Positions 3,568-64,000 of a stretch of 64,000 nucleotides of DNA are shown here, piece by piece. The stretch is taken from the NCBI GenBank assembly GCA_003194525.1, contig NBIV01000276.1, forward strand, positions 43,466 through 107,465, read 5' to 3'. The notes beneath the pieces were generated by a model that saw only the letters and a list, made by a program, of their open reading frames with translations, did no database searches and had not been told where the DNA came from. Every line of letters begins with the position of its first letter. Position 1 is the stretch's first letter. The translations under genes were made by a program, and so were the position numbers. Source of the stretch: Gracilariopsis chorda. Lineage: Eukaryota > Rhodophyta > Florideophyceae > Gracilariales > Gracilariaceae.

Positions 3568-4536
3568 TTGCATATAATTCATAACTATACTTTCAATATC
3601 AACGCGCTGTCTGAAGAACAATGCTTAAATTATTTTTGCTTTCGGCTTAACAATATAAGGCGCATGTTTAGGATGATAAAATGGAATTTACAGCATACAA
3701 GCAGAAACCGTATCAGTGCGATGCATTCAAAGCTGCTTGCATACTATTTAAACCCTTATCCTGCACACAGACTTTGTATGACATGGAACTGATGTTTGAA
3801 ATGCGGTACAGTCACATCAGTGAAATATTCTGGGACGCAATAGAAAAATTTGTAGAATATAAAGGGCATCTCGTAACTAACTTGCAATCAGAACTTCTAC
3901 GATCTTGCGCTCATATTTATTCTGAAGCCATACGTAGACTTGGGTCTCCATTGACCAGATGTGTTGGGTTCATCGATTGCACAAAAATAGAAATGAGCCA
4001 CTCTGGAAGACTGGCAAGCAACAAAAGGTCTTGCTTCTCGGGGCATACGCGAAAATTGCTTGAAGTACCTAACTATATCTATGCCTGATGGATTAATTGT
4101 TTACCTATATGGACCTGAAGTTGGCCGTCGTAACGACATGACCGTTATGCGAAGAATTGATATTGAAAGTAATATGGAATCATCTTTAGTAATTAAAGGC
4201 ATTCAGTACTACCTTTATGGAGATCCGGCTTTTGGTTTAAGACCCTGGCTTCAAACTGCTTTCGATACGGAAAATGCAACAGAAGATGAGCTAAAGTACA
4301 ACTGTGCGATGAATACAATTCGTACTTCCGTCGAGTGGAACTACAAAGATTTGAAACAGAGATGGACGAGGAATGCGTTTTCTAGATTACTACGTGTGAG
4401 GCAACTTCTAGTTGCCCTTTTTTACATCGCGTCTGCCTTGCTCCTGAATTTCAAGACTTGCATTGAGAAAGGAGGACAGGCAAGCTATTACTTTGATTGT
4501 GATGCTCCAATTTTTGATGTCTACTCCACTTTGTAA
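3568..4536 (+). pseudogene. Second HARBI1-like DDE transposase, frameshifted
   Basis: Three plus-strand frames make one protein. The start (SEEQCLNYFCFRLNNIRRMF) shifts near 3680 into a frame with FIDCTKIEMSHSG, then near 4060 into KYLTISMPDGLIVYLYGPEVGRRNDMTV, YYLYGDPAFGLRPWLQ and VEWNYKDLKQRW. The catalytic triad is visible: D of FIDCTK, D of LYGDPAFG, E of VEWNYKD. This is the HARBI1/PIF nuclease type and it differs from the copy at 514-1827, so it is a separate family. With two frameshifts it is probably dead. The Gypsy element inserted 37 bases after its stop codon. Confidence 0.83.
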
Positions 4537-4572: not shown

Positions 4573-4577
4573 GAAAA
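4573..4577. repeat. Target-site duplication (left) GAAAA
   Basis: GAAAA directly precedes the left LTR and recurs right after the other LTR at 13966-13970. Five bases is the usual duplication size for Ty3/Gypsy integrases, and it fixes both element borders. Confidence 0.9.
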
Positions 4578-5400
4578 TGTGGTGCAATGCCCCAAAGGGG
4601 AAAAACACCGAAAGAAGTTCGGGATCTTCCTCTCACGAGGTGAAACCAGTTGGGTAGAGCCCTCCCAGATGTGTCACGGCGAAGCCGGTTTGTAAGACAA
4701 GAGACACCTGTCCCGACTCGCGCAGGGAGGTGAACGCGAAGAGTCGGTATCCGCGTGAGCGGGGTGTGATCCTCAGTAGAGGTATGTTTCCACGTAAGTG
4801 GGGATGCGTGAGCGGGTGCACACAGGAGGGCCGCGGGTAGCGGGATGTACTACCCTGAAAGGGGGAAAGGAGGAAGAGTGGGCGAGGGTGAGTCGCAAGA
4901 GCGACGAACAAATACGGCAATGCCGGTGGGCAGGACTCCCTATACAGGGCGAAACACCAATGTGATTGGAACAATTATACTCCCAAGTGTGGGTCTCTTT
5001 AGGTGTGCAAGGGGGTTAGAGGTCCCGTGGTTCACGGCGTTTCCCTCCAAGGAGGAGTTGAGAACGCGCGCAAGCGGCAACAACTAGAGCCAGTTCCCCA
5101 GGTTGGGGTCCCTTGTTGGGGAAGCTTTACTGGTGCAACGGCAGTGCGCCGTCGCACTAAGTACTAACTTCCCAGAAATGGGTGTAAAAATAATAAATAC
5201 ATCTAACTAAAATTATTAGAAATACTCCACATTTCATGGCAACATCCACTACCGTGGCCAACCGCCAATTGGCCCAAAACCGTGTCCCACGTGTGCATAT
5301 CTACCATAGTGAGGCGTAGTTCATATACACACTACACAACCGATAATATCGGGAAAACAATCAAGTACCAGGAATCCCTCCCTGAGGGCGTTGCACTTCA
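4578..5400 (-). repeat. Gypsy LTR (3' LTR of the element)
   Basis: Begins TG and ends CA, and matches 13133-13965 along its length. Perfect mini-hairpins are packed into it, for example GTCGC-AAGA-GCGAC (4892-4905), CCTCC-AA-GGAGG (5044-5055) and CCGAT-AAT-ATCGG (5340-5352). It lacks the ~20-base duplication present in the other LTR. Confidence 0.93.
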
Positions 5401-5413
5401 TATCCCCCTCCTG
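5401..5413 (-). other. Polypurine tract of the Gypsy element
   Basis: Read on the minus strand, the bases directly before the 3' LTR are AGGAGGGGGATA, a purine-rich run in the position where plus-strand DNA synthesis is primed in retrotransposons. Confidence 0.75.
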
Positions 5414-5656
5414 AGACGGGAAAACGACCGCGGACGCGGAGGACTCCCAGACGAAAATGGGTGATAAAAGCGCGTGCGCCGTCTCCGGTTCTTCTTTCCT
5501 GGCTTAGCCAGCTGGTGTAGTATAGTGTTGTGGGGCGCTAGCTGCTCCCTTGAATAAACTTTCCCGTTTAGAACGGTGATTATCGTTTGAGTTCCCCGTC
5601 TTCGACGGACCTTGCCTTGTTATCCTTTCCTATCGCCCTTCGCTCGCCCGGCAACG

Positions 5657-6553
5657 TTACCCAACTTGGGCATTGACCAGCGTGGCTGGAGCTGCAGTTC
5701 CCGTTTGACGGTGGTATCGCACGACGTGGGACCGTGGGAGGTGTTCGATTAGCTCCCACGTATCCCCACTGGGGTCATACCCGTACCAGCGGACGCAGTA
5801 TTGTAGAATACCATCCTGGTCCCAGGTGTGTCCGACAAGTCGGTCTACTACGAACTCTCGTTCGTAGACCTGCCGGCCGTACCGGGTGGTGGTTGTACTC
5901 CCTTGAGAGGGTTGCCCGCGGTGCGGTATAATGTCCCTTAGTAGGGTGTTCGGCGACAACTCCGTCGTTGCCGTGCGCTGTGGTAGCGGCCTCTGCTCGT
6001 GCGGGAGGATATCCCTCAAGAGGGTGTTTGGCGTCATGGTTTTCACCGCCAAGTCATTCCCCATTGGGGCAGGGTCGTTTCCACTTTCGCGGTATTGCGG
6101 GCGAACCGCCAGTCGGCGGGGAACTTGGGCTCCGCCTTGGCTGTTGAGCTCACGAACCGCGAGTTTGCGGGAAGATGACCGCTCCTGCGGAATCAGCGTT
6201 TCCACGATCCCCTGGGGGGTCGTGTGCGACGCGGTGATTGCATGGCAAACCGCCTCCCTGCCAGGCGCACGAGCGCTCTGCACCATACGTTCCGGCGACG
6301 CCGTGGTGTCCACGGCTACTGACGGGCTACCTGGGGCTAACTCCGCTACACCGGTATTTTGGTCCAAATTCCCCTTTGGGGGGTGCCGGGCAGGTGCCGG
6401 TGACACCCTTTTCAGGGGCTTGGCCGCTAAGTGTGGTGCACCGTCTCCATGGGGAGGGGCAGCGTCCGGTACGACCGGTTTCGAGCGTGCGATGGCGCGC
6501 GTTTTTCCCGAGTTCCTCGGTTCTTCGCCACAGTGTTGCGGAAGTTGGCGCAA
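5657..6553 (-). pseudogene. C-terminal part of Gypsy integrase with chromodomain
   Basis: A 298-residue minus-strand frame offset from the integrase frame. It ends in a chromodomain (EFVVDRLVGHTWDQDG, then LQYCVRWYGYDPSGDTWEL and LPRSHVVRYH), which in chromoviruses guides integration through chromatin marks. Before it lies a Pro/Arg-rich linker with a duplicated 12-residue motif of the form [TS]PNTLLRDI[LI]PH (DNA near 5930-6045). The frame differs from that of the integrase core (6427-8154), so a frameshift near 6430-6550 separates the two, and I treat it as a broken part of pol, not an independent gene. A continuous in-frame version would give a C-terminal extension of usual chromovirus type. 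Confidence 0.85.
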
Positions 6554-8154
6554 ATTATTCCCCGGAGCGGGGGCTTCGATTCCGTCGACGACGGGAGGCG
6601 TTTCCGGCGCCTGCGCACCAGTGTTCCATATGTTAAGTGTTTCCCGTTGTGACGGCGATATCGTTCCTCGAAAACGAGTGTTCTCCTCCCCCTCCTGAGA
6701 CGGAGCGGTGGGATAAGGGATAACATTCCCCGCCTGGCGGGTGTAAATTTGCGCCAGGGGGTGGGCGTGGTAGGGGCGGGCGCTGAGAGGCCCGAATTAC
6801 CCGGCTGAGCCGGTGAGTCCGACAGGGTTGGTAGGTCTGAGAGTCCCCGGCTGGGGTGTGGTAGTACCGTAGGCCTAGTACTCCCGGATGATTCCGGTGT
6901 TCCAGAGTCCGTAGGAACGGGGTTGCCTGGATCCAGGACTACCTCTGACGAGGGAGGAGGGGTAAGGACAACACGATTACGGGAAGTCCGTTCGTGCGTG
7001 TCGCCCATCTCTACCACGACAGTGTCGGTGTTTACAGAGATGACCTTGAATGGTCCGTCCGCCACAGGCGAGAGTTTATGACGCTTCTCCCGTTCCGGAT
7101 TGTAGTACTCCTTCCTGATGAAGACGTAGTTATTTGCCCGAATCGGGGGGGTCTTTCCTCGCAAGCGATCATCAAAATCCCGCTTATAAGCGGCTTGGGC
7201 CCGTGCCATAGACCTCCGCGCAGCGGGGACCAGCTTGGAAAGCCATTGCTTCCATTGCCGCCGGTAGATACCCACTGATGGGAAATTGTCCAAGGTAGCT
7301 TGGGGTTCCAGCGCCACAGGCGGGGGCATTCTAGATAGAACCAACTCGAATGGTGAAACTCCGGTAGTCCAGTGTACCTGCGTATTGTGCGCGAAGGTTA
7401 ACGCGTCAGCGTAGAGATCCCAATTCTTTGGGTGGCCAGCGACGTAGGAACGTAGCGCCGCGAGTAACGTCCGGTTAAACCGTTCAACTTGCCCATTACA
7501 CTGGGGGCGGTAGGTAGTCGTGAACAAGTTCTTGACATCCGGGATGCCACAAACATCCTGGAAGAACTTGCTCGCGAATTGTTTCCCGTTATCGGAGAGC
7601 ACCTCCACAGGAGGACCGTAGACAAAAATCCAGTGGGTCACAAGAGCCTGGGCCACCGTGAAAGCGGTTATCCTCCGAAGAGGGACAGTCCACACCAGCT
7701 TGGAAAAGCGGTCGGTAATGACAAGTAGAAACGTTTTTCCACGTTTTGTGGTGAGTAGTGGTCCGAGAATATCAATTGCAATAAACTCGAGTGGCGACCC
7801 TGCGGGGAATAGTTTCATCTTCTTCGCATTTTTGCGGAGCTTGACGCGATTCTTCGCGCATTCGCTACAGAACCGCACAGTTGCGTAGCAATCCACCGCC
7901 ATGGCGGGCCAATAGAAATCCATTCGCAGGGTTAGGTAGAGTTTTCTCCCACCTGGGTGACCTCTCATGGGGGCGTAGTGTGATAGATGTAACACCCGCG
8001 ATTGCAAGGAATGTGGTACCACAATCTGTGGGCGGGATTCCACCTTCCGGACGAGGTAGCCCTTGTTGTCCACCCCGAAAGGGAGATCTTCACCACCGTT
8101 AAGACGGGCACGAATCCTCGTGCAGAAGGGGTCACCGAACTTTTCTCGGATCAT
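6427..8154 (-). pseudogene. Gypsy integrase core
   Basis: A minus-strand frame of 575 residues, in the same frame as the reverse transcriptase but cut off from it by TGA at 8188-8190. The N-terminal HHCC zinc module is visible (HLSHYAPMRGHPGG, then CSEC). The rve catalytic core follows with D in FIAIDILGPL, D in VLSDNGKQF and E in NGQVERFNRTL, spaced as usual. A GPY-like segment (DGPFKVI) comes after. It would insert the cDNA into the host genome. The last ~150 residues enter a Ser/Pro/Arg-rich zone where the frame probably shifts to that of the chromodomain. Confidence 0.93.
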
Positions 8155-8187
8155 CTCTTCCGGTGAAACCGGTACAAAATTTCCCGG

Positions 8188-10182
8188 TCATGGGTTCTCA
8201 GAATCATCTCGCGATGCGAGTAGGTCGTCAAAGTCAGCATCCTCGTCCCAGTTTTCTGGCCCAGCCTCGACGGCACACTCCGGATCATCCGGGTCTATAG
8301 CCATGAAGCATGGGACTTCATCATCCTCTGTTGGGAGTGCTTCCCCACTTGTGGGTAACCGCGATAAAGCGTCGGCCTGGGTGTTCTGCGCACCCTTTTT
8401 ATAAATGACTTGAAAGTCATATTCCGCGAGGCGGAGTCTCCAGCGCATGAGGCGTCCCGACGGGTCGGAGATATTCATCAACCACCTCAATGAGGAATGA
8501 TCCGTGTACACGGTGAAGTGAATTCCCATAAGGTAGGGGCGCAGAGTGGTCATCGCCCATACGACGGCGAGGCACTCTTTCTCCGATACGGAGTAGTTCC
8601 GCTCATGAACATTGAGCGAACGTGACCAATAACCAATTGGATGTCGTTCCCCCTCGGGGGTGGTTTGAAAAAGAGCACACCCGACTTGGTAGTCGCTCGA
8701 GTCCGTATCTACGGAGTATGGCAACCCAAGTTTTGGGAGATGTAGGATTGGTGCTGATGTGACAGCCTCCTTTAAGGAGTTAAAAGCTTCCGATTGCTCG
8801 GGCGTAAATGTTCCCAGGTTTGGGGAGTTCCCCTTTCGCAACAACGCGTTCAGGGGCGCTGCAGTATCCGAAAAGTTCGGGATAAACCGTCGATAGACGT
8901 TGACCAGTCCCAGAAAGGAGCGCAGATCCGTTTGAGTACGGGGTTCTTTCGCCTCAACGAGGGATTTGACTCGAGCTTTCTCGATCGCTAACCGTCCAGG
9001 AAGGATAATGTGACCCAGATACTTCACAGTATCTGTGAAAAACTCGCATTTCCTCAACTTGAGGTTAATTCCCGCATCGCGGAGTACGGTCAGCACGTCT
9101 CGGACGTGAGTGAGATGGTCGTGCAACGAGTTGGAGAACATGATAATATCATCAAGGTAGACCAGACAACTCCGCCACTTAGAGCGATTGAGTAGCATAT
9201 CTACTGCACGCTGAAAGGTGGCAGGGGCGTTGGTTAACCCAAATGGCATCCGCTTGAAGCGGTACGTTCCTGCGTGGCAGATGAATGCGGTTTTGTTGCG
9301 ATCCTCCTGTCTGACAGGTATTTGCCAATATCCCCAATTGGCATCGAGAGCCGTGAACACGGTGGCGTCTCCGAGGGATTCAATACACTCGTCCATACGA
9401 GGGATAGGGTACGTGTCCCTAATAGTCACGGCATTGAGCCGGCGGTAGTCGACACAGAACCTCCAGGTTCCGTCGGCCTTCAAAGCCAGTACAACTGGGG
9501 ATGCCCAGGGTGATTGAGCGGGCTCAATCACCCCTGCGCGGAGCATCTTGTCCACTTGGGACTGCTCCTCTTCCCGAGCTTTCGGACCTGCCCTGTAAGG
9601 GGGTTGCGCAACCGGTCGCGCACCGGGGATTAGATCAATCCAGTGTTCCGTTGCATTTATCTCGCCAAGCGAGCTATCCCACATAGTGGTGAATCCCCGT
9701 AACATATTACGGGGTTTGTCAGGGTGCGACTCTGGCACATGGCTGAAGTCCAGTGCTTCAAGTGCCTTATCCGGATCAATCCGGTCGTTGCTCAACGGAG
9801 CATTGTCCTCTTTCACAGGTGTGGTTCGCAATTACGAGTTACTCGGTATGTTCGACGCTAAAGTAGCGGTTTCCTCCCCCTCCTTAGACTTGACTTCTTC
9901 GGACGGCGGGGCGAACTCCTGAGAAGAGGTGGAAACTCCGAGTACATCGGCGGCTGTCATCTTCGTTGGCAGCATTCCCATAGGATGGGGGGTTACACTC
10001 CCAATTACTTGGTGTTTTACCAGATACTGGGGGTGTTTGCCAAGGTTGGCAACCAATATCCGGAAAGGGACATCCGGGGAAATGGAAACAATTCCATTAG
10101 CCAGTGCCTGCGGGGATTTCTCGTACAACGAGGCGAGGGGTTGTATAACCCGAAGACCGTGTTGACGGGAATTTATCTGCAC
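8188..10182 (-). pseudogene. Gypsy reverse transcriptase and RNase H, two stops
   Basis: One frame, broken by TAA at 9832-9834 and bounded by TGA at 8188-8190. Upstream of the first stop lies a linker (residues like ISPDVPFRILVANLGKHP). The reverse transcriptase shows GVIEPAQSPWASPVVLALK, FCVDYRRLNAVT, YPIPRMDE, FKRMPFGLTNAPATFQ and the catalytic CLVYLDDIIMFS. RNase H follows with YSVDTDSSDYQVGCALFQ, NYSVSEKECLAVVWA and YTDHSSLRWL. This copies element RNA into DNA and removes the RNA strand. All catalytic residues are present, so the damage seems late. The EPAQSPW codons form a perfect 12-bp palindrome at 9508-9533. Confidence 0.95.
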
Positions 10183-10195
10183 CCAGACGTGGGAC

Positions 10196-10645
10196 TCAGG
10201 CGGTATAGAAACCGAGGCAGCGATGCGGAGCTTGGTGGACTCGCGAGACGCGGGCGGTGGTTCCTTGCGCAGCAGGGAGTGGAACTTGTTTCCGAGAGGA
10301 CCGCTTTAGCGGGCGGTGAACAATCGGAACCGACGATCCGTCGTCCAGTTCTACACGCCTGAGGCGGGGCCTGATTGCGTCGACAAATCTGTCGCAGTAA
10401 TCACATCCCAGTATAACTGGTGCTGCCAATGAACGGCAAACGATGAAGTCCAACTTCACCGCAGAGGTACCAAGTCTCACGACGAGGTCCACTGTGCCCA
10501 CCGTTTGTAACCGATTGTTGTTCGCATCCGAAATTTCGGGTACCGCGTCAGAGCGGATACAAGACCGCACAAGCGGGGGTAACAATGATTCCACAACAAA
10601 GTTGGGGCCTGCACCTGTATCCAGGACAGTGAGAAACCTCACCAT
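10196..10645 (-). pseudogene. Gypsy aspartic protease
   Basis: A minus-strand frame of 149 residues starting VRFLTVLDTGAGPNFV, the active-site DTG of retropepsins, with the later LGCDYCDRF segment typical of Gypsy proteases. It would cut the Gag-Pol polyprotein. Its frame differs from both gag and reverse transcriptase, and the linker that should follow it (HVWVQINSRQHGL) sits in the next frame, so a frameshift lies near 10190-10320. A short frame at 10639-10875 bridges gag and protease. Confidence 0.88.
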
Positions 10646-10875
10646 AACTGGGGATCAAGGCCAAGGTCAGCATAGACCTTATAATTCCGCTTGGCCAAGA
10701 CCAAGACTCTACCGGGAATCCGGGGATTTTTACTCCGTACCCACGGGCGACGCAACACACCGAGGTGCGCAGATTCCGCGTCGGCGGTGTCTTTCCTCGA
10801 GAGGACTTTCACCGGGGAGCGAGGCCAGGACACCTCGGGTGCCAACAGCCTCTTGTCTGAGGACGCCTCTCCCAA
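10639..10875 (-). pseudogene. Gag-protease linker segment
   Basis: A 78-residue minus-strand frame (EASSDKRLLAPEVSWPRSPVKVLSRKD and on) between gag and protease. The degenerate gag copy near 24000 has a matching stretch (EASSESRLFTPEAPSPCSPVKILSRK when read on plus), so this is real element sequence. It is likely part of the polyprotein, joined to its neighbours through frame changes. Confidence 0.6.
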
Positions 10876-10892
10876 AGCGGAGACTCCCTCAG

Positions 10893-12695
10893 TTAGTTTT
10901 CTGCCTTCGGCGGTGGGTTGGTTTCCTCAACAACGACTGCTTCATCCCGTTGACGGGGGTTTCTATACGCATAAGCGGGGGTTGCAACGGATGGTTGCGC
11001 GATCTCCCGAATCGGGGTGTATGAAGCTTGCCGTGCACGCGGGGTTTGTGGTAGGGCATGGGAAAAGTCCGTTTTAGCACGGAGGTAGGAAGCCGTCGGG
11101 ACGGAACGTTTCTCCTCTGGAGTGAGGGTCTCGTAGTTTGCCACCACCTTGGCCATATCCTTCAGTGAGCAGATACACTGAGGCGAGGTTTGGCCATGGG
11201 CATAACAAAGGTGGCAAATGAGAGCCAACACCGCGACACGCGGATTATTATTCCGAGTATCGGAGGAGCGAACCGCAGGGCGGGTGTCAGTCCATCCAGA
11301 CCGTTGATAACGGGATTGACCGTTTGAAAACGGGAGTCGTTGGGGTTGGACCCGACCGTTACCACCGTGTAGAATGCGATCTTCTGTTCCCGTATCACGG
11401 GTCATCTCCGTCGTTGACGGTAAATCGGTGGTTGGAATCGACACACCATCCCCCTGCACTAAATGCACGGTATCAAATCTCTGTCTAGGGTTCCCATACG
11501 CAGTGAGCGGGAGCGATGAGTAGTCGCTCTTCATCATCAACGCCTTGGCGGATTTAGACCGATTGTTTGGAGTTCTTGCACGAAGGGCATCCCCTTCCGC
11601 TCGAGCGTGTTGTAACAGCTCGAGATAGGTGATCCTCCGCTTATCCTCCCGATAACGGGTAACTAAACTCCGGATTGCCGGGTCAAGACCATCGATGAAC
11701 ATGGTAACGCGCTCCCCAGCGGGGTATACGTTACCACATCTGTGGAAAGCCTTGTTAAGGCGCACCGAGTAATCGGTCTCGGTCTCTCCAGCACGCTGGC
11801 GTGTATCTCGCAAAGCGAGGATAGCCTGCTGAATAGCGGTGTTTGTGGCGTAGGAATGCAGTAGATACTGCACCGCTTCCGGCCAGCAAGTAAGTCCTCC
11901 CTCGGAGGCGCGGGAAGATCCTCTGACAGAGTTGTATTGGTCCTCCGCCACTCCCCGTAAGAAATACGGTAAAGCCAAGTAGGCTTGTCCCTCATTCATA
12001 CCGAGGATATCGGCCTCCGCTACAAAGCGGGATAGGAAATTCAGTACTAGGACCGGATCCTCTCCAGTAAAATACTGGTTGCGGAGTGAGAGCTGCATTC
12101 GCTTAATGCATTCTCGCACCTTTCCCGTACCACGGGGCGTACGTCCAGGTGACGAATCTTCGAGCCGGTAGTACCGGTATGATAATAACGTCCGGTAATC
12201 TGGGTTTGTCAGCTTCAACTCCCAGAGCCCGGGGTGTCTTCTCCCCTTCTGGCGGGTTTGGATCACACCTTCAGTGGCCGATGACCGCTTCGAGCGGGAG
12301 GAGTAGCCTGGCTTCTCGTCCTCCGAGTCGGAGTCCGAGGAGCTCGACCTAACCGAATGGTTTCGGGATGAATCCGACGATGTCGAAGAATCAGAGTCCG
12401 AATATTTTCGGTCGTGTTTCCGTCGATGACGTCGTTTCTTCTTCCCAGCAAGCTGGTCGTTGTGCGATGCCTCGTTTACTGGATCATCCGGGGATGGTTT
12501 GTCCATGAGGACGAACTGCTCCAACATCTCCAGCCGGGCACCAATCCTATCAAATCGGGCTTCAACTCCTTCGATGAAGGTGGCGGGTTGCCCCATACTC
12601 TCCAACACGGAGTTGACATCAGACCGTAAAATACAGAGGTCCTCGGCAACCTCTTTCACATGGGTTGCCATAACCACCTCTTGGAGGGATTTCAA
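10893..12695 (-). pseudogene. Gypsy Gag capsid/nucleocapsid protein (frame-shifted 5' end)
   Basis: A 600-residue frame on minus. A Lys/Arg and Ser/Asp-rich segment lies near residues 85-150. A helical capsid region follows (MQLSLRNQYFTGEDPVLVLN, FVAEADILG, QAYLALPYFLRGVAEDQYNS, ETDYSVRLNKAFHRCGNV, RVTMFIDGLDPAIRSLV). A variant zinc knuckle CHLCYAHGQTSPQC follows, with the His two residues earlier than in CX2CX4HX4C. It would package element RNA. The relic at 21.7-24.1 kb aligns along most of its length. The real N-terminus is in another frame (12701-13036), so a frameshift near 12700 has cut this copy. Confidence 0.9.
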
Positions 12696-12700
12696 TTCCC

Positions 12701-13036
12701 CTACAAGGGTGTCGTGGGCAGTCCACAGGGCGCGGACCTGGGAATCCAGGGGTGTCCCCTGGGGGTGTTGTCGACCGTTCCACGGGATTTTGATACCGCG
12801 ACAGCGGGAGTCGATGCATCATTCCCCTGCAGGGGTGACAACAAGGGCAAAGGAGTGTTCCGGGGTTCCCGTGGTTGGTTTGAATTCCTCGAAGAGGGTC
12901 CACCAGCAAAGCTGGAGCCGGTCCGCTTCGGAATGCGCGATACGAACCGAACTTCGGGGACTTCTCCACCATCGTGGGAACGACTGCGGGTGACTGCACG
13001 CTCCGCATCGGAGGGTTGCCTGGACATGAGGAGCAA
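12701..13036 (-). pseudogene. Gag N-terminal segment in another frame
   Basis: A 111-residue minus frame (MSRQPSDAERAVTRSRSHDG, then Ser/Pro-rich) ends exactly where the main gag frame picks up LKSLQEVVMATHVKEVAEDL. The second gag copy reads across the same junction in one frame (LVREYPTFLEVVEENFVVHV, then TEDLRLIR), which supports a single-base lesion near 12700 in this copy. Confidence 0.7.
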
Positions 13037-13110
13037 CCGTCACGACGGAAACGATTCCGGAACTTCCGGGAAGTGGAAGACAAACCTCGAAAGAGGGAAA
13101 ACAAACACCG

Positions 13111-13129
13111 ATTCTAGGTCAGGAGACCA
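13111..13129 (-). other. Primer-binding site of the Gypsy element
   Basis: Three bases inside the 5' LTR, the minus strand reads TGGTCTCCTGACCTAGAAT. It begins TGG as expected for the complement of a tRNA CCA end, and its complement has the form of a tRNA 3' end with discriminator A and a seven-base acceptor strand TCAGGAG. I cannot name the tRNA. Confidence 0.75.
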
Positions 13130-13132
13130 CTT

Positions 13133-13965
13133 TGTGGTGCAATGCACCAAAGGGGAACAACACCGAAAGAGGTTCGGGATCTTCCTCTCACGAGGTGAAC
13201 CCAGTTGGGTAGAGCCCTCCCAGAGGTGTCACGGCGAAGCCGGTTTGTAAGACCAGGGACACCTGTCGCGACTTGCGCAGGGAGTTGAAGGCGAAGAATC
13301 GGTATCCGCGTGAGCGGAGTGTGATCCTCATTAGAGGTATGTTTCCACGTAAGTTGGGGTGTGTGGACGGATGCGCACACGAGGGCTGCGGGTAGCGGGA
13401 TGTACCACTCTGAAAGGGGGAAAGGAGGAAGAGTGAAGGGAAAGGAGGAAGAGTGGGCGAGGGTAAGTCGCGAGAGCGACGAACAAATACGGCAATGCCG
13501 GTGGACAGGACTCCCTATAGAGGGCGAAACACTAATGTGATTGGAACAATTACACTCCCAAGGATGAGTCTCTTTTGGTATGCAAGGGGGTTAGAGGTCC
13601 CGTGGTTCACGGCGTTTCCCTCCAAGGAGGAGTTGAGAACGCGCAGAAGCGGCAACAACTAGAGCCACCTCCCCAGGTTAGGGTCCCTTCTTGGGGAAGG
13701 TTTATTGGTGCGACGGCAGTGCGCCGTCGCACTAAGTACTAGCTTCCCAGAAATGGGTGTGAAAATAATAAATAAAACTAACAAAAACACTCCACATTCC
13801 GTGGCAACGCCCACTACTGTGGCCAAGCGCCAATTGACCCAAAACCATGTCCCACGTGGCCATATCCACCATTGTGAGGCGTAGTTCATATACACGCTAC
13901 ACAACCGATAATATCGGGAAAGCATTCAAGTACCAAGAATCCCTACCTGAGGGCGTCGCACTTTA
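13133..13965 (-). repeat. Gypsy LTR (5' LTR of the element)
   Basis: The partner of 4578-5400. It starts TG and ends TA in place of CA (terminal base changed). Near 13420-13455 it has a direct duplication of about 20 bases (AGGAGGAAGAGTG appears twice). Transcription of the element should start here, leftward. Confidence 0.93.
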
Positions 13966-13970
13966 GAAAA
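13966..13970. repeat. Target-site duplication (right) GAAAA
   Basis: Exact copy of the five bases before the left LTR (4573-4577). Confidence 0.9.
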
Positions 13971-31339: not shown

Positions 31340-31700
31340 TGAGAAGGGCCTTCGGCCCTACCACTCTTGACTGCAGTTGTGACGTCTGCATCTTGCCTGC
31401 AGGAAAGAGTGGTAGCGCCACCCTACCACAATTTCTTGCAGTTGTGATGTCTGCATCTTGCCTGCAGGAAAGAGTGGTAGTGCCGGCCTACCTTTCTTTC
31501 CTGCAGTTGTGACGTCTGCATCTTGCCTGCAGGAAAGAGTGATAGGGTCAGAGCTTGAGCGCTTTCACTTTCACTTGAACACTTTCCTGCAGTTGTGATG
31601 TCTGCATCTTGCCTGCAAGAAAGAGTGGTAGGGCCGCCCTACCATTCTTTCGTGCAGTTGTGACGTCTGCATCTTGCATGCAGGAAAGCGTGATAGGGCC
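31340..31700. repeat. 65-bp foldback tandem array, five units
   Basis: The core GCAGTTGTGA(C/T)GTCTGCATCTTGC recurs at 31373, 31438, 31503, 31589 and 31654 (spacing 65, 65, 86, 65). Each core is framed by inverted arms: CCCTACCACTCTT...CTGCAG on the left and CTGCAGGAAAGAGTGGTAGGG-type on the right, so each unit can fold on itself. A half unit (TGCAGGAAAGAGTGATA) occurs alone at 48335-48351. Confidence 0.85.
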
Positions 31701-31726
31701 GGAGCTTGAGCGGTCACAAACCTGAA

Positions 31727-58072: not shown

Positions 58073-58470
58073 GATGGTCTTCGTCTAGTTGGGCATTATG
58101 AAAATTGCGTTTCGCAGCCGGTTGGATGAGCACCTGGTACAACGATCTTCACGTTTATATACGTGAGAAAGTCGTGAGCAAGCGGTCGTCTGATTACCAG
58201 CGGGGTTCACAAGCGTAACAGGAAGCAGCTCAAATATCCGTAAACGGAGCGGGCGTTGGTGCGTAATACAAAATCTTCTCGGAACGGTTTTGAAGTACAC
58301 CAACGGTAAAAAGAGGAGGAAAGAAAGGAAAGATTGGGAAGCGTAGGGATACGGAACGTGAAACAATCGCTTAGGAGAAAGAGAGGTGAAGACGGAGGCT
58401 TAGGGGTTTGAACGTCAGGAATACATCCTGCGCCGCGACCGCAGCTGGGTATTAAGGCGTTTTTGGGCCG
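58073..58470. other. Promoter-side spacer of the methyltransferase-like gene
   Basis: No convincing coding. It leads into the hairpin array and probably holds the 5' region of the leftward gene. Confidence 0.4.
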
Positions 58471-58863
58471 CCAGTGGTCGAGCGACCAATGCAGCTATGT
58501 AGTGCAGGCAACTGTCCTGTCGTACATGGCGGTGGTGGTCGCTCGACCATTGCGGGCTAAAAAACTGTAAAGGTTTTGGGACGGCAGTGGTCGAGCGACC
58601 ACTCCGCGAATGTACGACCGGAATTTTTCCTGTTGTACATGGCGGCGGTGGTCGCTCGACCACTGCAGTCTAAAAACTTGTAATTTTTTGCGCCAGTGGT
58701 CAAGTGACCATCGCCGCCACGTACGACAGGAAAAAGTCCTTTCGTACATGGGGACGGTGGTCACTCGACCATTGCAGGCTAAACACTTGTAATGTTTATG
58801 GAGCGCCAATGGTTGAGCGACCACTGCCCACATGTACAACGGGATATAGTCCCATTGTACATG
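58471..58863. repeat. Tandem array of nested hairpins, ~111-bp period
   Basis: The palindrome AGTGGTCGAGCGACCA or a variant starts at 58472, 58585, 58694 and 58806 (spacing 113, 109, 112). In each unit it is followed by ATGTACGAC, a short loop, GTCGTACAT-type sequence and then GGTGGTCGCTCGACCA in inverse order, so each unit is a long foldback whose ends are themselves palindromes. No coding function is evident. Confidence 0.88.
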
Positions 58864-63559: not shown

Positions 63560-64000
63560 TTTGCGGTTTTTAGTGGTTTTAGGGGATTTTAGGGGATTTT
63601 AGGGGATTTTAGGGGGTTTTTAGAGGATTTTAGGGACTTTAGGGGTTTTTATAGGGGTTTTTAGGGGTTTTAGGGGGGGTTTTTTAGGGGTTTTAGGGGT
63701 TTTTAGGGGTTTTAGGGTTTTAGGGGTTTTTTAGGGGATTTTAGGGGTTTTTAGGGATTTTAGGGGTTTTTTAGGGGTTTTTAGGGGTTTTAGGGGTTTT
63801 TAGGGGTTTTTTTAGGGTTTTAGGGGTTTTAGGGTTTTTAGGGTTTTTAGGGGTTTAGGGGTTTTTAGGGTTTAGGGTTTTTAGGGGTTTTTAGGGGTTT
63901 TTTAGGGGTTTTTTAGGGTTTTTTTAGGGGATTTTAGGGGTTTTTAGGGGGATTTTAGGGGATTTTAGGGGTTTTAGGGGTTTTTAGGGGTTTTTTTAGG
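63560..64000 (+). repeat. Irregular TTTTAGGGG telomere-like tract
   Basis: About 440 bases of 8-11-base units of the form T(3-7)AGG(G)(G) with occasional extra A (TTTTAGGGGA, TTTTTAGGGG, TTTAGGG). The G-rich strand runs 5' to 3' toward the right end, the correct polarity for a right-hand chromosome end. Units vary in length, unlike most telomerase products. It could be a true telomere with slippery template use, or a subtelomeric satellite. The window stops inside it. Confidence 0.8.

Follow-up and report, generated by a model that had tools for sequence, protein, structure and literature searches.

Mini-hairpins packed along one group of related Gypsy LTR retrotransposons, possibly kept by selection on element DNA

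The stretch of DNA analysed here (the window, 64,000 nucleotides), apparently red-algal, carries at 4578..13965 a Ty3/Gypsy LTR retrotransposon of the chromodomain type. Its LTRs are 88.5% identical by self-BLAST and are bracketed by a 5-bp target-site duplication, GAAAA on each side. In successive minus-strand frames Pfam matches reverse transcriptase and RNase H first, integrase after them and then a chromodomain (PF00385, E 6.6e-9). The gag frame has a Ser/Asp/Arg-rich stretch and a zinc-knuckle-like CX2C...C; it has no Pfam match of its own, and PF03732 is present in homologues. The interval between gag and reverse transcriptase is, from its position, probably the protease region; a Pfam search with a 152-aa frame in it gave no match. 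The features are as follows.

4573..4577, no strand: target-site duplication GAAAA, left (direct reading)
4578..5400, minus: LTR on the left in the window, the 3' LTR of the element (self-BLAST)
4578..13965, no strand: hairpin array, CC-N8-GG and CC-N9-GG sites inside 336 stems of at least 4 bp with loops of 3-5
4892..4905, no strand: example of a tetraloop hairpin, GTCGC-AAGA-GCGAC, in the LTR
5340..5352, no strand: example of a triloop hairpin, CCGAT-AAT-ATCGG, in the LTR
5657..6796, minus: chromodomain frame, 379 aa, downstream of integrase (Pfam Chromo)
6427..8187, minus: integrase frame, 586 aa (Pfam Integrase_H2C2, rve)
8188..9831, minus: reverse transcriptase and RNase H frame, 547 aa (Pfam RVT_1, RT_RNaseH)
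9508..9533, no strand: exceptional 12-bp stem over the VIEPAQSPW codons
9832..10892, minus: gag-RT interval, split into short frames; probable protease region by position
10893..12818, minus: gag open frame, 641 aa
13133..13965, minus: LTR on the right in the window, the 5' LTR of the element (self-BLAST)
13966..13970, no strand: target-site duplication GAAAA, right (direct reading)

Small perfect hairpins are found along the whole element. A preliminary description had put them roughly every 20-40 bases; the 11 that it quoted are all present at the positions given, and stems of at least 4 bp with loops of 1-5 occur once per 24 bases (387 versus 163.0±10.9 in dinucleotide shuffles). Perfect stems of at least 5 bp with loops of 0-6 number 182 versus 55.8±5.3 (z about 24), and stems of at least 4 bp with loops of 3-5 number 336 versus 110, about one excess hairpin per 40 bases in 9.4 kb. 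All eight regions of the element are enriched, 2.5-4.1x. For example, the left and right LTRs have 33 and 27 stems of at least 4 bp with loops of 3-5, where 8.6 and 9.2 are expected, the gag-RT interval has 39 versus 12.0 and the integrase frame 50 versus 19.9. The earlier figure of at least 15 for the left LTR pointed to a real abundance and was an undercount (37 versus 13.3±3.5 for stems of at least 4 bp with loops of 1-5). The gag frame has 69 hairpins versus 20.8 in dinucleotide shuffles and 27.2±5.0 in codon shuffles that keep the protein and the codon counts; for the RT-RNase H frame the numbers are 63, 18.1 and 21.3±4.2. Across these two frames and families A-D, z is 8-12 against codon shuffles. 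The argument that protein constraint cannot explain the hairpins therefore holds, and coding and codon use are ruled out as the cause, as chance and composition are by the shuffle counts.

The excess ends at the LTR edges. For stems of at least 5 bp with loops of 0-6 the other parts of the window stand at 0.8-1.2x shuffles (left flank 1.14, 14-24 kb 0.81, 24-44 kb 0.91, 44-63.5 kb 1.19). The saturation is thus real and, inside the window, specific to the element, with a density far above both the shuffled controls and other DNA, equality with which had been named as refutation. The gag relic at 21.7-24.1 kb, also described as poorer in hairpins, is so (9 versus 14.3); this is weak evidence, because the relic is split into short open frames and its lack may reflect decay. 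General repeat richness is not the cause: direct repeats of at least 5 bases within 20 bases (133 versus 122.6±9.6) and mirror stems of at least 5 bp (43 versus 48.8±6.6) are at shuffle level. Longer direct repeats are mildly raised (at least 6, 40 versus 30.1±3.7; at least 7, 13 versus 6.6±2.3).

Related Gypsy families, as a group, share the excess with one contig of another source (L060). Extending the count to other copies and families, as had been proposed, separated these relatives from other elements. No excess was detected in Gypsy L048, L050 and L051 (three of the 14 loci of the PF00078 search), in Gypsy L067 (z 1.5), L059 and L061, or in any of six Copia loci. A genome-wide property is ruled out by the remainder of the window, the Copia loci and L048, L050 and L051. 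In the reverse transcriptase tree, which left out L060 (only 100 residues matched) and L053 (no match), the array is restricted to one group; L067 is a long branch with 41% identity, and its placing beside family B is not trusted. A scan of viral_contigs for relatives found none.

Hairpin size is nearly fixed. Two shapes prevail, a triloop on a 5-bp stem and a tetraloop on a 4-bp stem; 57 triloop stems are exactly 5 bp long (versus 7.5) and 102 tetraloop stems exactly 4 bp (versus 29.5). Together these shapes cover 25.9% of the element versus 5.8% in one shuffle, and stems of 4-5 bp make up the bulk of the excess. Stems of 6 bp or more with loops of 3-5 (21 versus about 7 in shuffles) are mostly what chance extension of many shorter stems would give, and triloop stems above 5 bp are rarer than that (27/196 in 13 loci versus 25%, p=0.0002). 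The 12-bp stem singled out earlier is present, but stems of 8-10 bp and more are not special to the element; the left flank and the 24-44 kb interval have more of them than shuffles too (at least 10 bp, 2 versus 0.0 and 3 versus 0.2). Loops of 6-9 are at chance level here (126 versus 116.6). They are mildly raised in some relatives (family B 70-72 versus 46-50, L063 48 versus 26.4, L068 42 versus 26.8), which shows that the limit on size varies in sharpness.

Most of the sequence information sits at the stem base. Hairpins with CC..GG at the base number 108 versus 5.7, those with GG..CC 7 versus 5.5. The 108 sites, in which all inner pairs are Watson-Crick, comprise 68 CC-N8-GG and 40 CC-N9-GG and occur at 2-11 per 500 bases; 14 are in the left LTR (versus 0.6) and 9 in the right (versus 0.5). 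A plain sequence motif without folding is weakened as an explanation, since CC-N9-GG with a fully paired interior is found 40 times versus 1.0 and the fully unpaired class 16 times versus 8.4. In 12 pooled stretches the outermost triloop pair is enriched 10.4x as C-G versus 2.2x as G-C, and the loop-closing pair has no orientation bias. With family labels assigned by eye, the families do not share one preference: A, B and L065 have C at both outer pairs, D has C or T there, in family C and its kin the preference peaks one or two pairs inward, and L071 has tetraloops only (43 versus 9.0) with a G-rich 5' arm. Loops have a mild base bias only, and on the sense strand are poorer in G than in C (0.203 versus 0.260; 0.242 versus 0.268). 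Thermodynamic preference alone is weakened by the similar enrichment of inner G-C (4.1x) and A-T (3.4x) pairs and by the unbiased loop-closing pairs. A limit on this objection is the third tetraloop pair, which favours G-C (3.7-4.2x) over A-T (2.0-2.6x); stability may therefore count. The near-fixed size, the family-differing stem-base code and the restriction to related families were absent from the preliminary description.

The end-to-end packing of hairpins in coding and non-coding parts alike suggests that element DNA is under a constraint, or subject to a copying process, that is as yet undescribed. As the best explanation it is proposed, tentatively and with slightly more doubt than belief, that in this group of related Gypsy elements selection preserves the mini-hairpins as DNA structures, with a protein of the element as their probable reader. 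The dense, dispersed array of mainly two shapes would be maintained in the replicating lineage by point mutation together with selection. Pairing would matter at the DNA level, most plausibly while the cDNA is single-stranded within the particle. The candidate reader is a family-specific element protein, Gag/nucleocapsid first and reverse transcriptase or integrase next, which may recognise each hairpin by its stem base and its overall height; a copy has 100 or more such sites, and these would help to coat, compact or protect the cDNA.

Variation between copies bears on this selection and on a serious, if less probable, rival, mutational writing. There, the reverse transcriptase of the group would make short intrastrand template switches that perfect small quasi-palindromes: the growing cDNA would turn back on itself around a loop of 3-5 bases, copy a short stretch, then melt and go back. 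Size would be capped since longer stems cannot melt, a 3'-GG end would aid re-annealing, and no function is needed. Writing accounts for Watson-Crick-only pairing, for stems either perfect or at background, for an array in coding DNA and LTR alike, for the turnover of positions and for the restriction to one reverse transcriptase group, and has precedents in the available portions of PMC8794818 and PMC6649704. Among polarised hairpin gains (21/230 resolved), 5/7 multi-change gains, a small set, lie within one arm as writing would have it; against it, unpolarised differences are not clustered in one arm (21/80 hairpins with 2-4 differences versus 29.5 expected if independent). Differences in broken hairpins are even across arms (223 versus 236; these arm tests use ten comparisons, each pair read in both directions). 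Extension avoidance and the directional, family-differing stem base need extra assumptions under writing.

In 29 copies, shared variants number 30/1050 in stems, 26/407 in loops and 123/2835 outside hairpins, and singletons 99/1050, 32/407 and 227/2835; shared variants avoid stems and private ones do not (Fisher p=0.007, stems versus rest). In 29 LTRs the direction is the same and not significant (odds ratio 0.57-0.64, p 0.07-0.14). The mean in the distance table, in sense orientation, is 0.0144. Positions turn over between families: in eight comparisons, hairpins with a gap in the alignment being set aside here as in the other pair counts, 166/248 are found broken in the family compared, which leaves room for few individually essential hairpins. 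The shift control used for shared positions takes no account of the ancestry that the sequences have in common. The compensating changes proposed as a check were found in part. Conserved YSVSE codons carry paired synonymous changes, and the 29 LTRs have two private paired C-G to T-A changes, compatible with writing, one in L008 in the stem matching the 5340..5352 hairpin. However, the pol copies have no two-sided change among 26 shared stem changes, which also counts against writing, and slid controls are not beaten in every pair (two-sided Watson-Crick changes L068->L070 0 versus 0-3, L064->L062 3 versus 1-5, L063->L066 5 versus 7-8).

An RNA-level function, with stem-loops of the genomic RNA bound by Gag in packaging or a genome-wide ordered RNA structure by which silencing is avoided, is unlikely. 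The array does span LTRs and interior, loops of 3-5 are physical, and a family-specific stem-loop feature resembles the packaging-signal model as given in the available part of PMC6281560. Perfect stems are enriched 3.6x overall, and inner G-U pairs (1.21x), looked for in the 12 pooled stretches as wobble tolerance in sense RNA, are no higher than A-C (1.26x) or other mismatches (1.11-1.20x) although A-T is enriched. In the three middle pairs of triloop stems single mismatches are mostly at 0.8-1.4x (C-A once 1.85x); at the end pairs they reach 0.9-3.1x and there equal shorter stem classes. One-sided changes between loci, summed over 13 overlapping comparisons, give 149 G-U versus 172 A-C. Sense-strand folding is in excess over one 1-kb stretch (z -4.9), yet the antisense strand folds about as well (z -3.95; 20 shuffles each). 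In five bearing loci (16 shuffles each, in windows of 100 bases over pieces no longer than 3 kb) the local folding excess is the same on both strands within error, with no better folding of the sense strand, and is larger with DNA than with RNA parameters in all five, within error in L060. Loops of 6-8 would be tolerable to RNA and have no excess here, a mild one in some relatives. At the single Ser-Ser site that has many haplotypes, five G-U stand against one A-C (by eye, 24 distinct sequences from 100 matches listed of 831), as RNA would show and counter to a DNA reading. The RNA-folding roles first suggested for the hairpins are thus weakened by the G-U counts, strands and DNA parameters, and the copying process named beside them stays a live rival.

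Defence evasion without a specific reader is more improbable still. Hairpins could make unpaired stretches shorter and keep a host nuclease, a deaminase or sense-antisense annealing away from cDNA or from both RNA strands, as the equal strands and the presence of hairpins in every region would allow; but a generic shield should favour longer stems, when triloop stems above 5 bp are avoided, and predicts no stem-base preference, when a strong one is observed. Other Gypsy and Copia loci of the same genome manage without the array. Chance, composition, codon use or an assembly artefact is refuted by the shuffle scores and by the recurrence of the pattern across many contigs and also in one from another source, and nothing in its support was found.

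Selection on DNA hairpins is favoured by the near-fixed size, the stem-base dialects, extension avoidance, DNA-like pairing and folding, fewer shared stem variants, even arms and the YSVSE paired synonymous changes. Against it stand the 166/248 broken hairpins, the slid controls, the raised loops of 6-9 in relatives, the Ser-Ser G-U surplus, the loop G deficit and the G-C preference at the third tetraloop pair, as well as the conversion argument from perfect stems without an imperfect excess, made for Nematomorpha in the accessible part of PMC6649704. A bolder form is possible but doubtful: a second code over the whole sequence, with more than 100 single-stranded DNA hairpins of near-fixed size per copy, a family-specific stem-base code and an element protein as reader, by which cDNA identity would be recognised along the whole molecule and not at one packaging site. 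Selection or writing, each would be new. If selection is true, the genome of a retroelement uses a distributed code of DNA structure, with dialects by family, and offers a model of how proteins distinguish their own cDNA from other cDNA; if writing is true, this would be a strong example of a polymerase that shapes an entire genome through foldbacks, and template switching could be measured in it. A full-text literature search, with most subscription papers outside its scope, found no such retrotransposon arrays in titles or abstracts among the matches listed.

The element is like chromodomain Ty3/Gypsy elements in its LTRs, 5-bp target duplication, RT-RNase H-integrase order and chromodomain; other Gypsy loci (L048, L050, L051, L067, L059, L061) differ from the array bearers in having no hairpin excess. 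Genomes of RNA viruses with genome-scale ordered RNA structure (GORS) have folding energy in excess of shuffles. The excess is shared here, but is local, DNA-like and of mainly two hairpin shapes. Packaging signals of RNA viruses, in the part of PMC6281560 available, are likewise many stem-loops that share a recognition feature across a genome. They act in RNA, whereas here wobble is unfavoured, the strands are equivalent and information is at the stem base.

Template switching, according to the accessible portion of PMC8794818, creates and perfects short hairpins, with four-base loops enriched among instantaneous compensatory changes. The likeness would be a DNA copying process that makes short perfect hairpins, and the perfect stems here lack a single-mismatch excess, as that process would have it. 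Its hairpins are those of RNA genes whose structure is known to be selected, and G-U intermediates occur in them; the base-pair asymmetry predicted for it is towards more G-C and U-A (5' base first) where a C-G bias is seen here, and saturation of a coding element is not in the available part of that account. Mitochondria of Nematomorpha (PMC6649704, in the part available) have perfect inverted repeats of up to 284 bp in coding genes. Such long repeats in mitochondrial coding genes are not what was found; this is an LTR element. Both the Nematomorpha genes and this element have perfect repeats in conserved coding sequence, dynamic gain and loss and no imperfect excess; unlike those repeats, the hairpins described here are mostly of 4-5 bp with loops of 3-4, occupy coding and LTR retrotransposon DNA alike and have a directional stem base.

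The Gypsy element of the window carries 182 perfect hairpins with stems of at least 5 bp and loops of 0-6 bases, compared with 55.8 ± 5.3 in dinucleotide shuffles; the parts of the window tested outside the element have ratios of 0.63-1.19. A density difference of this kind had been proposed in the preliminary description, and all 11 of the hairpins quoted there are found in place. The excess is 2.5-4.1x in each of the element's eight regions and stops at its LTR edges. Protein coding, already judged an insufficient explanation, does not remove it: against shuffles of synonymous codons there are 63 hairpins vs 21.3 ± 4.2 in RT-RH and 69 vs 27.2 ± 5.0 in gag. Stems of 8-10 bp or more are also commoner than in shuffles in some of the flanking DNA and therefore lie outside the special feature. 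The element comprises:

4578-13965, minus strand: Gypsy element, recognised by its LTR pair, target duplication and protein frames
Both sides of the element: target duplication, GAAAA
Within 4578-13965, minus strand: gag, RT-RNase H, integrase and chromodomain frames

The window copy is degenerate, because the zinc knuckle of its gag (10893-12818, minus strand) has Q in place of the H of nearly all aligned relatives and its pol region is interrupted by stops. Its LTRs (4578-5400 and 13133-13965) share 88.5% identity; they are thus 11.5% divergent, yet 39 other copies among the matches listed reach 96-97% identity in the RT stretch. An LTR elsewhere in the genome matches the left one (4578-5400) at 95% identity. 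Immediately left of the element, a reading frame encoding a DDE_Tnp_4 domain (3997-4533, plus strand) is probably the relic of a DNA transposon.

Other features of the window include tandem arrays at 31356-31712 (units of 65/151 bases) and 58461-58844 (unit of about 113 bases, with an inverted self-match over about 220 bases). Strong GC skew occurs in blocks at 24-30 kb (+0.28 to +0.34), 34-40 kb (-0.15 to -0.25) and 62-64 kb (+0.40). An irregular tandem repeat with units similar to TTTTTAGGGG occupies 63565-63995, and the window ends where its contig ends. Three units of this repeat with at most 2 mismatches have 528 matches in the genome, compared with 5 for a reversed control. Most of the 100 matches listed are on the minus strand no further than about 1.3 kb from the start of a contig, or on the plus strand at high coordinates; those on contigs C263 and C343 seem internal. 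This is likely a telomeric repeat of the genome.

Hairpin excess has been detected well beyond this copy in the genome (91.3 Mb, 1081 contigs). All 30 pol stretches analysed for the family, the window's included, show it at 4.2-5.4x, and the LTRs average 30.3 hairpins vs 9.0 (n=29). The best named protein match of the element is to the red alga Agarophyton chilense (68% in RT, 50% in gag). A comparison with other Gypsy families, suggested earlier as a check, gave a mixed outcome: of 14 loci taken from the 150 RVT_1 matches listed, out of 3380 first-look candidates, 11 bear the excess and L048, L050 and L051 do not. The 11 bearing loci give three further families, with DNA identity of about 71-73% over 1.3-1.4 kb. 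No excess was found in 6 Copia loci picked among 150 listed of 2239. Ten further loci were selected by Ser-Ser haplotype among 100 listed of 831 matches; z exceeds 4 in seven, the lower values being 3.0 (L062), 2.0 (L069) and 1.5 (L067). A search of the genome_contigs set gave three contigs. L060, filed under a Robiginitomaculum MAG, has a related gag-pol and 21 triloop hairpins with 5-bp stems vs 2.9, with the CC bias absent; L059 (filed under Moorena; 97 vs 83.3 ± 9.7 hairpins) and L061 (36 vs 39.4 ± 5.7) show no excess. In a tree of 19 RT sequences without L060, where 5 of 16 inner branches have strong support, the bearers form one group (support 91/83), which includes L067 on a long, untrusted branch. 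L059 falls directly outside, and L048, L050 and L051 are more distant.

In the window element the excess is limited to loops of 3-5 bases; the apparent surplus at loops of 1-2 would be close to that produced by random pairing within triloops and tetraloops. The dominant shapes are triloops with 5-bp stems (57 vs 7.5) and tetraloops with 4-bp stems (102 vs 29.5), followed by triloops with 4-bp stems (72 vs 29.1), tetraloops with 5-bp stems (30 vs 7.2) and 5-base loops with 4-bp stems (42 vs 23.5). Loops of 6-9 bases on stems of at least 4 bp show no excess in the element (126 vs 116.6) but are more numerous than expected in family B (70-72 vs 46-50), L063 (48 vs 26.4) and L068 (42 vs 26.8). Over 13 loci, 27 of 196 triloop stems are longer than 5 bp, fewer than the expected 25% (p=0.0002), a sum without L067 (1/5) and L071 (0/5). 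The outer two stem pairs of the element are 5'-CC...GG-3': with a paired interior, CC-N8-GG occurs 68 times vs 4.5 and CC-N9-GG 40 vs 1.0, and the reverse orientation GG...CC is no more frequent than chance predicts (6 vs 4.5 and 1 vs 0.95, respectively). With labels assigned by eye, this preference differs between families: A, L065 and B have C at the two outermost pairs, D has C or T there, and in C and its kin the preference lies further inside the stem. L071 has a different base preference and tetraloops only (43 vs 9.0).

Families A-D (the window element's and the three further ones) share hairpin centres at the same codon-alignment position more often than under shifts, a control that ignores common ancestry: 18 vs 0.64 (A-D), 12 vs 0.61 (B-C), 11 vs 0.56 (B-D), 9 vs 0.64 (A-B), 7 vs 0.57 (C-D) and 5 vs 0.66 (A-C). 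With L060 they share 0-1 vs 0.2-0.3. Of 248 gap-free hairpins in eight comparisons between families, 166 are broken in the other member of the pair. Paired synonymous substitutions are present in YSVSE, whose two serine codons are TCC/TCG, TCT/TCA, TCG/TCC and TCC/TCG in families A, B, C and D, respectively. Compensating stem changes between copies were a check suggested in the preliminary description; two-sided Watson-Crick changes outnumber slid controls in certain pairs, such as A to L065 (12 vs 1-7) and B to C (11 vs 2-6), but fail to do so in, for instance, C to B (11 vs 3-11), L068 to L070 (0 vs 0-3) and L063 to L066 (5 vs 7-8). In 29 copies of the family, stems have fewer shared variants than the sequence outside hairpins (30/1050 vs 123/2835), and private variants show no such depletion (99/1050 vs 227/2835); p is 0.007 for stems against the rest. 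LTR shared variants go in the same direction, below significance, and the LTRs hold two private paired C-G to T-A changes.

A tentative reading is that the hairpins form an array in DNA, which would be kept by selection and read by a protein. An RNA stem that takes A-U about as well as G-C is expected, from known pairing energies, to take G-U. In 12 pooled stretches, inner pairs are enriched 4.1x for G-C and 3.4x for A-T, with G-U at 1.21x, A-C at 1.26x and other mismatches at 1.11-1.20x. Local folding excess is equal on both strands within error, and each of the 5 bearing loci gives a greater excess when DNA parameters are used, though in L060 the difference is within error; L048 and L055 have none. 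Counter to DNA, G-U outnumbers A-C among Ser-Ser haplotypes (5 and 1 of 24, a small count among the matches listed), sense-strand loops are slightly short of G, and the third tetraloop pair favours G-C. A serious, somewhat less likely rival is that the hairpins were written by the element's own RT through template switching, a process that would account for strict pairing, for turnover and for their confinement to a single RT group. Stem-creating changes should then fall in one arm, but unpolarised differences show no such clustering (of 80 hairpins differing at 2-4 positions, 21 have the changes in one arm, 29.5 expected), and changes per arm are 223 vs 236. Polarised hairpin gains were resolved in 21 of 230 cases, and the few multi-change ones lie in one arm in 5 of 7. 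Near-fixed size, avoided extension and a family-specific directional stem base suit a protein reader of selected DNA hairpins more directly.

No retrotransposons with such hairpin arrays appear in the titles and abstracts listed by literature searches. A packaging-signal model is described in PMC6281560. The nearest described cases are the coding palindromes of Nematomorpha (PMC6649704) and template-switch hairpins (PMC8794818).
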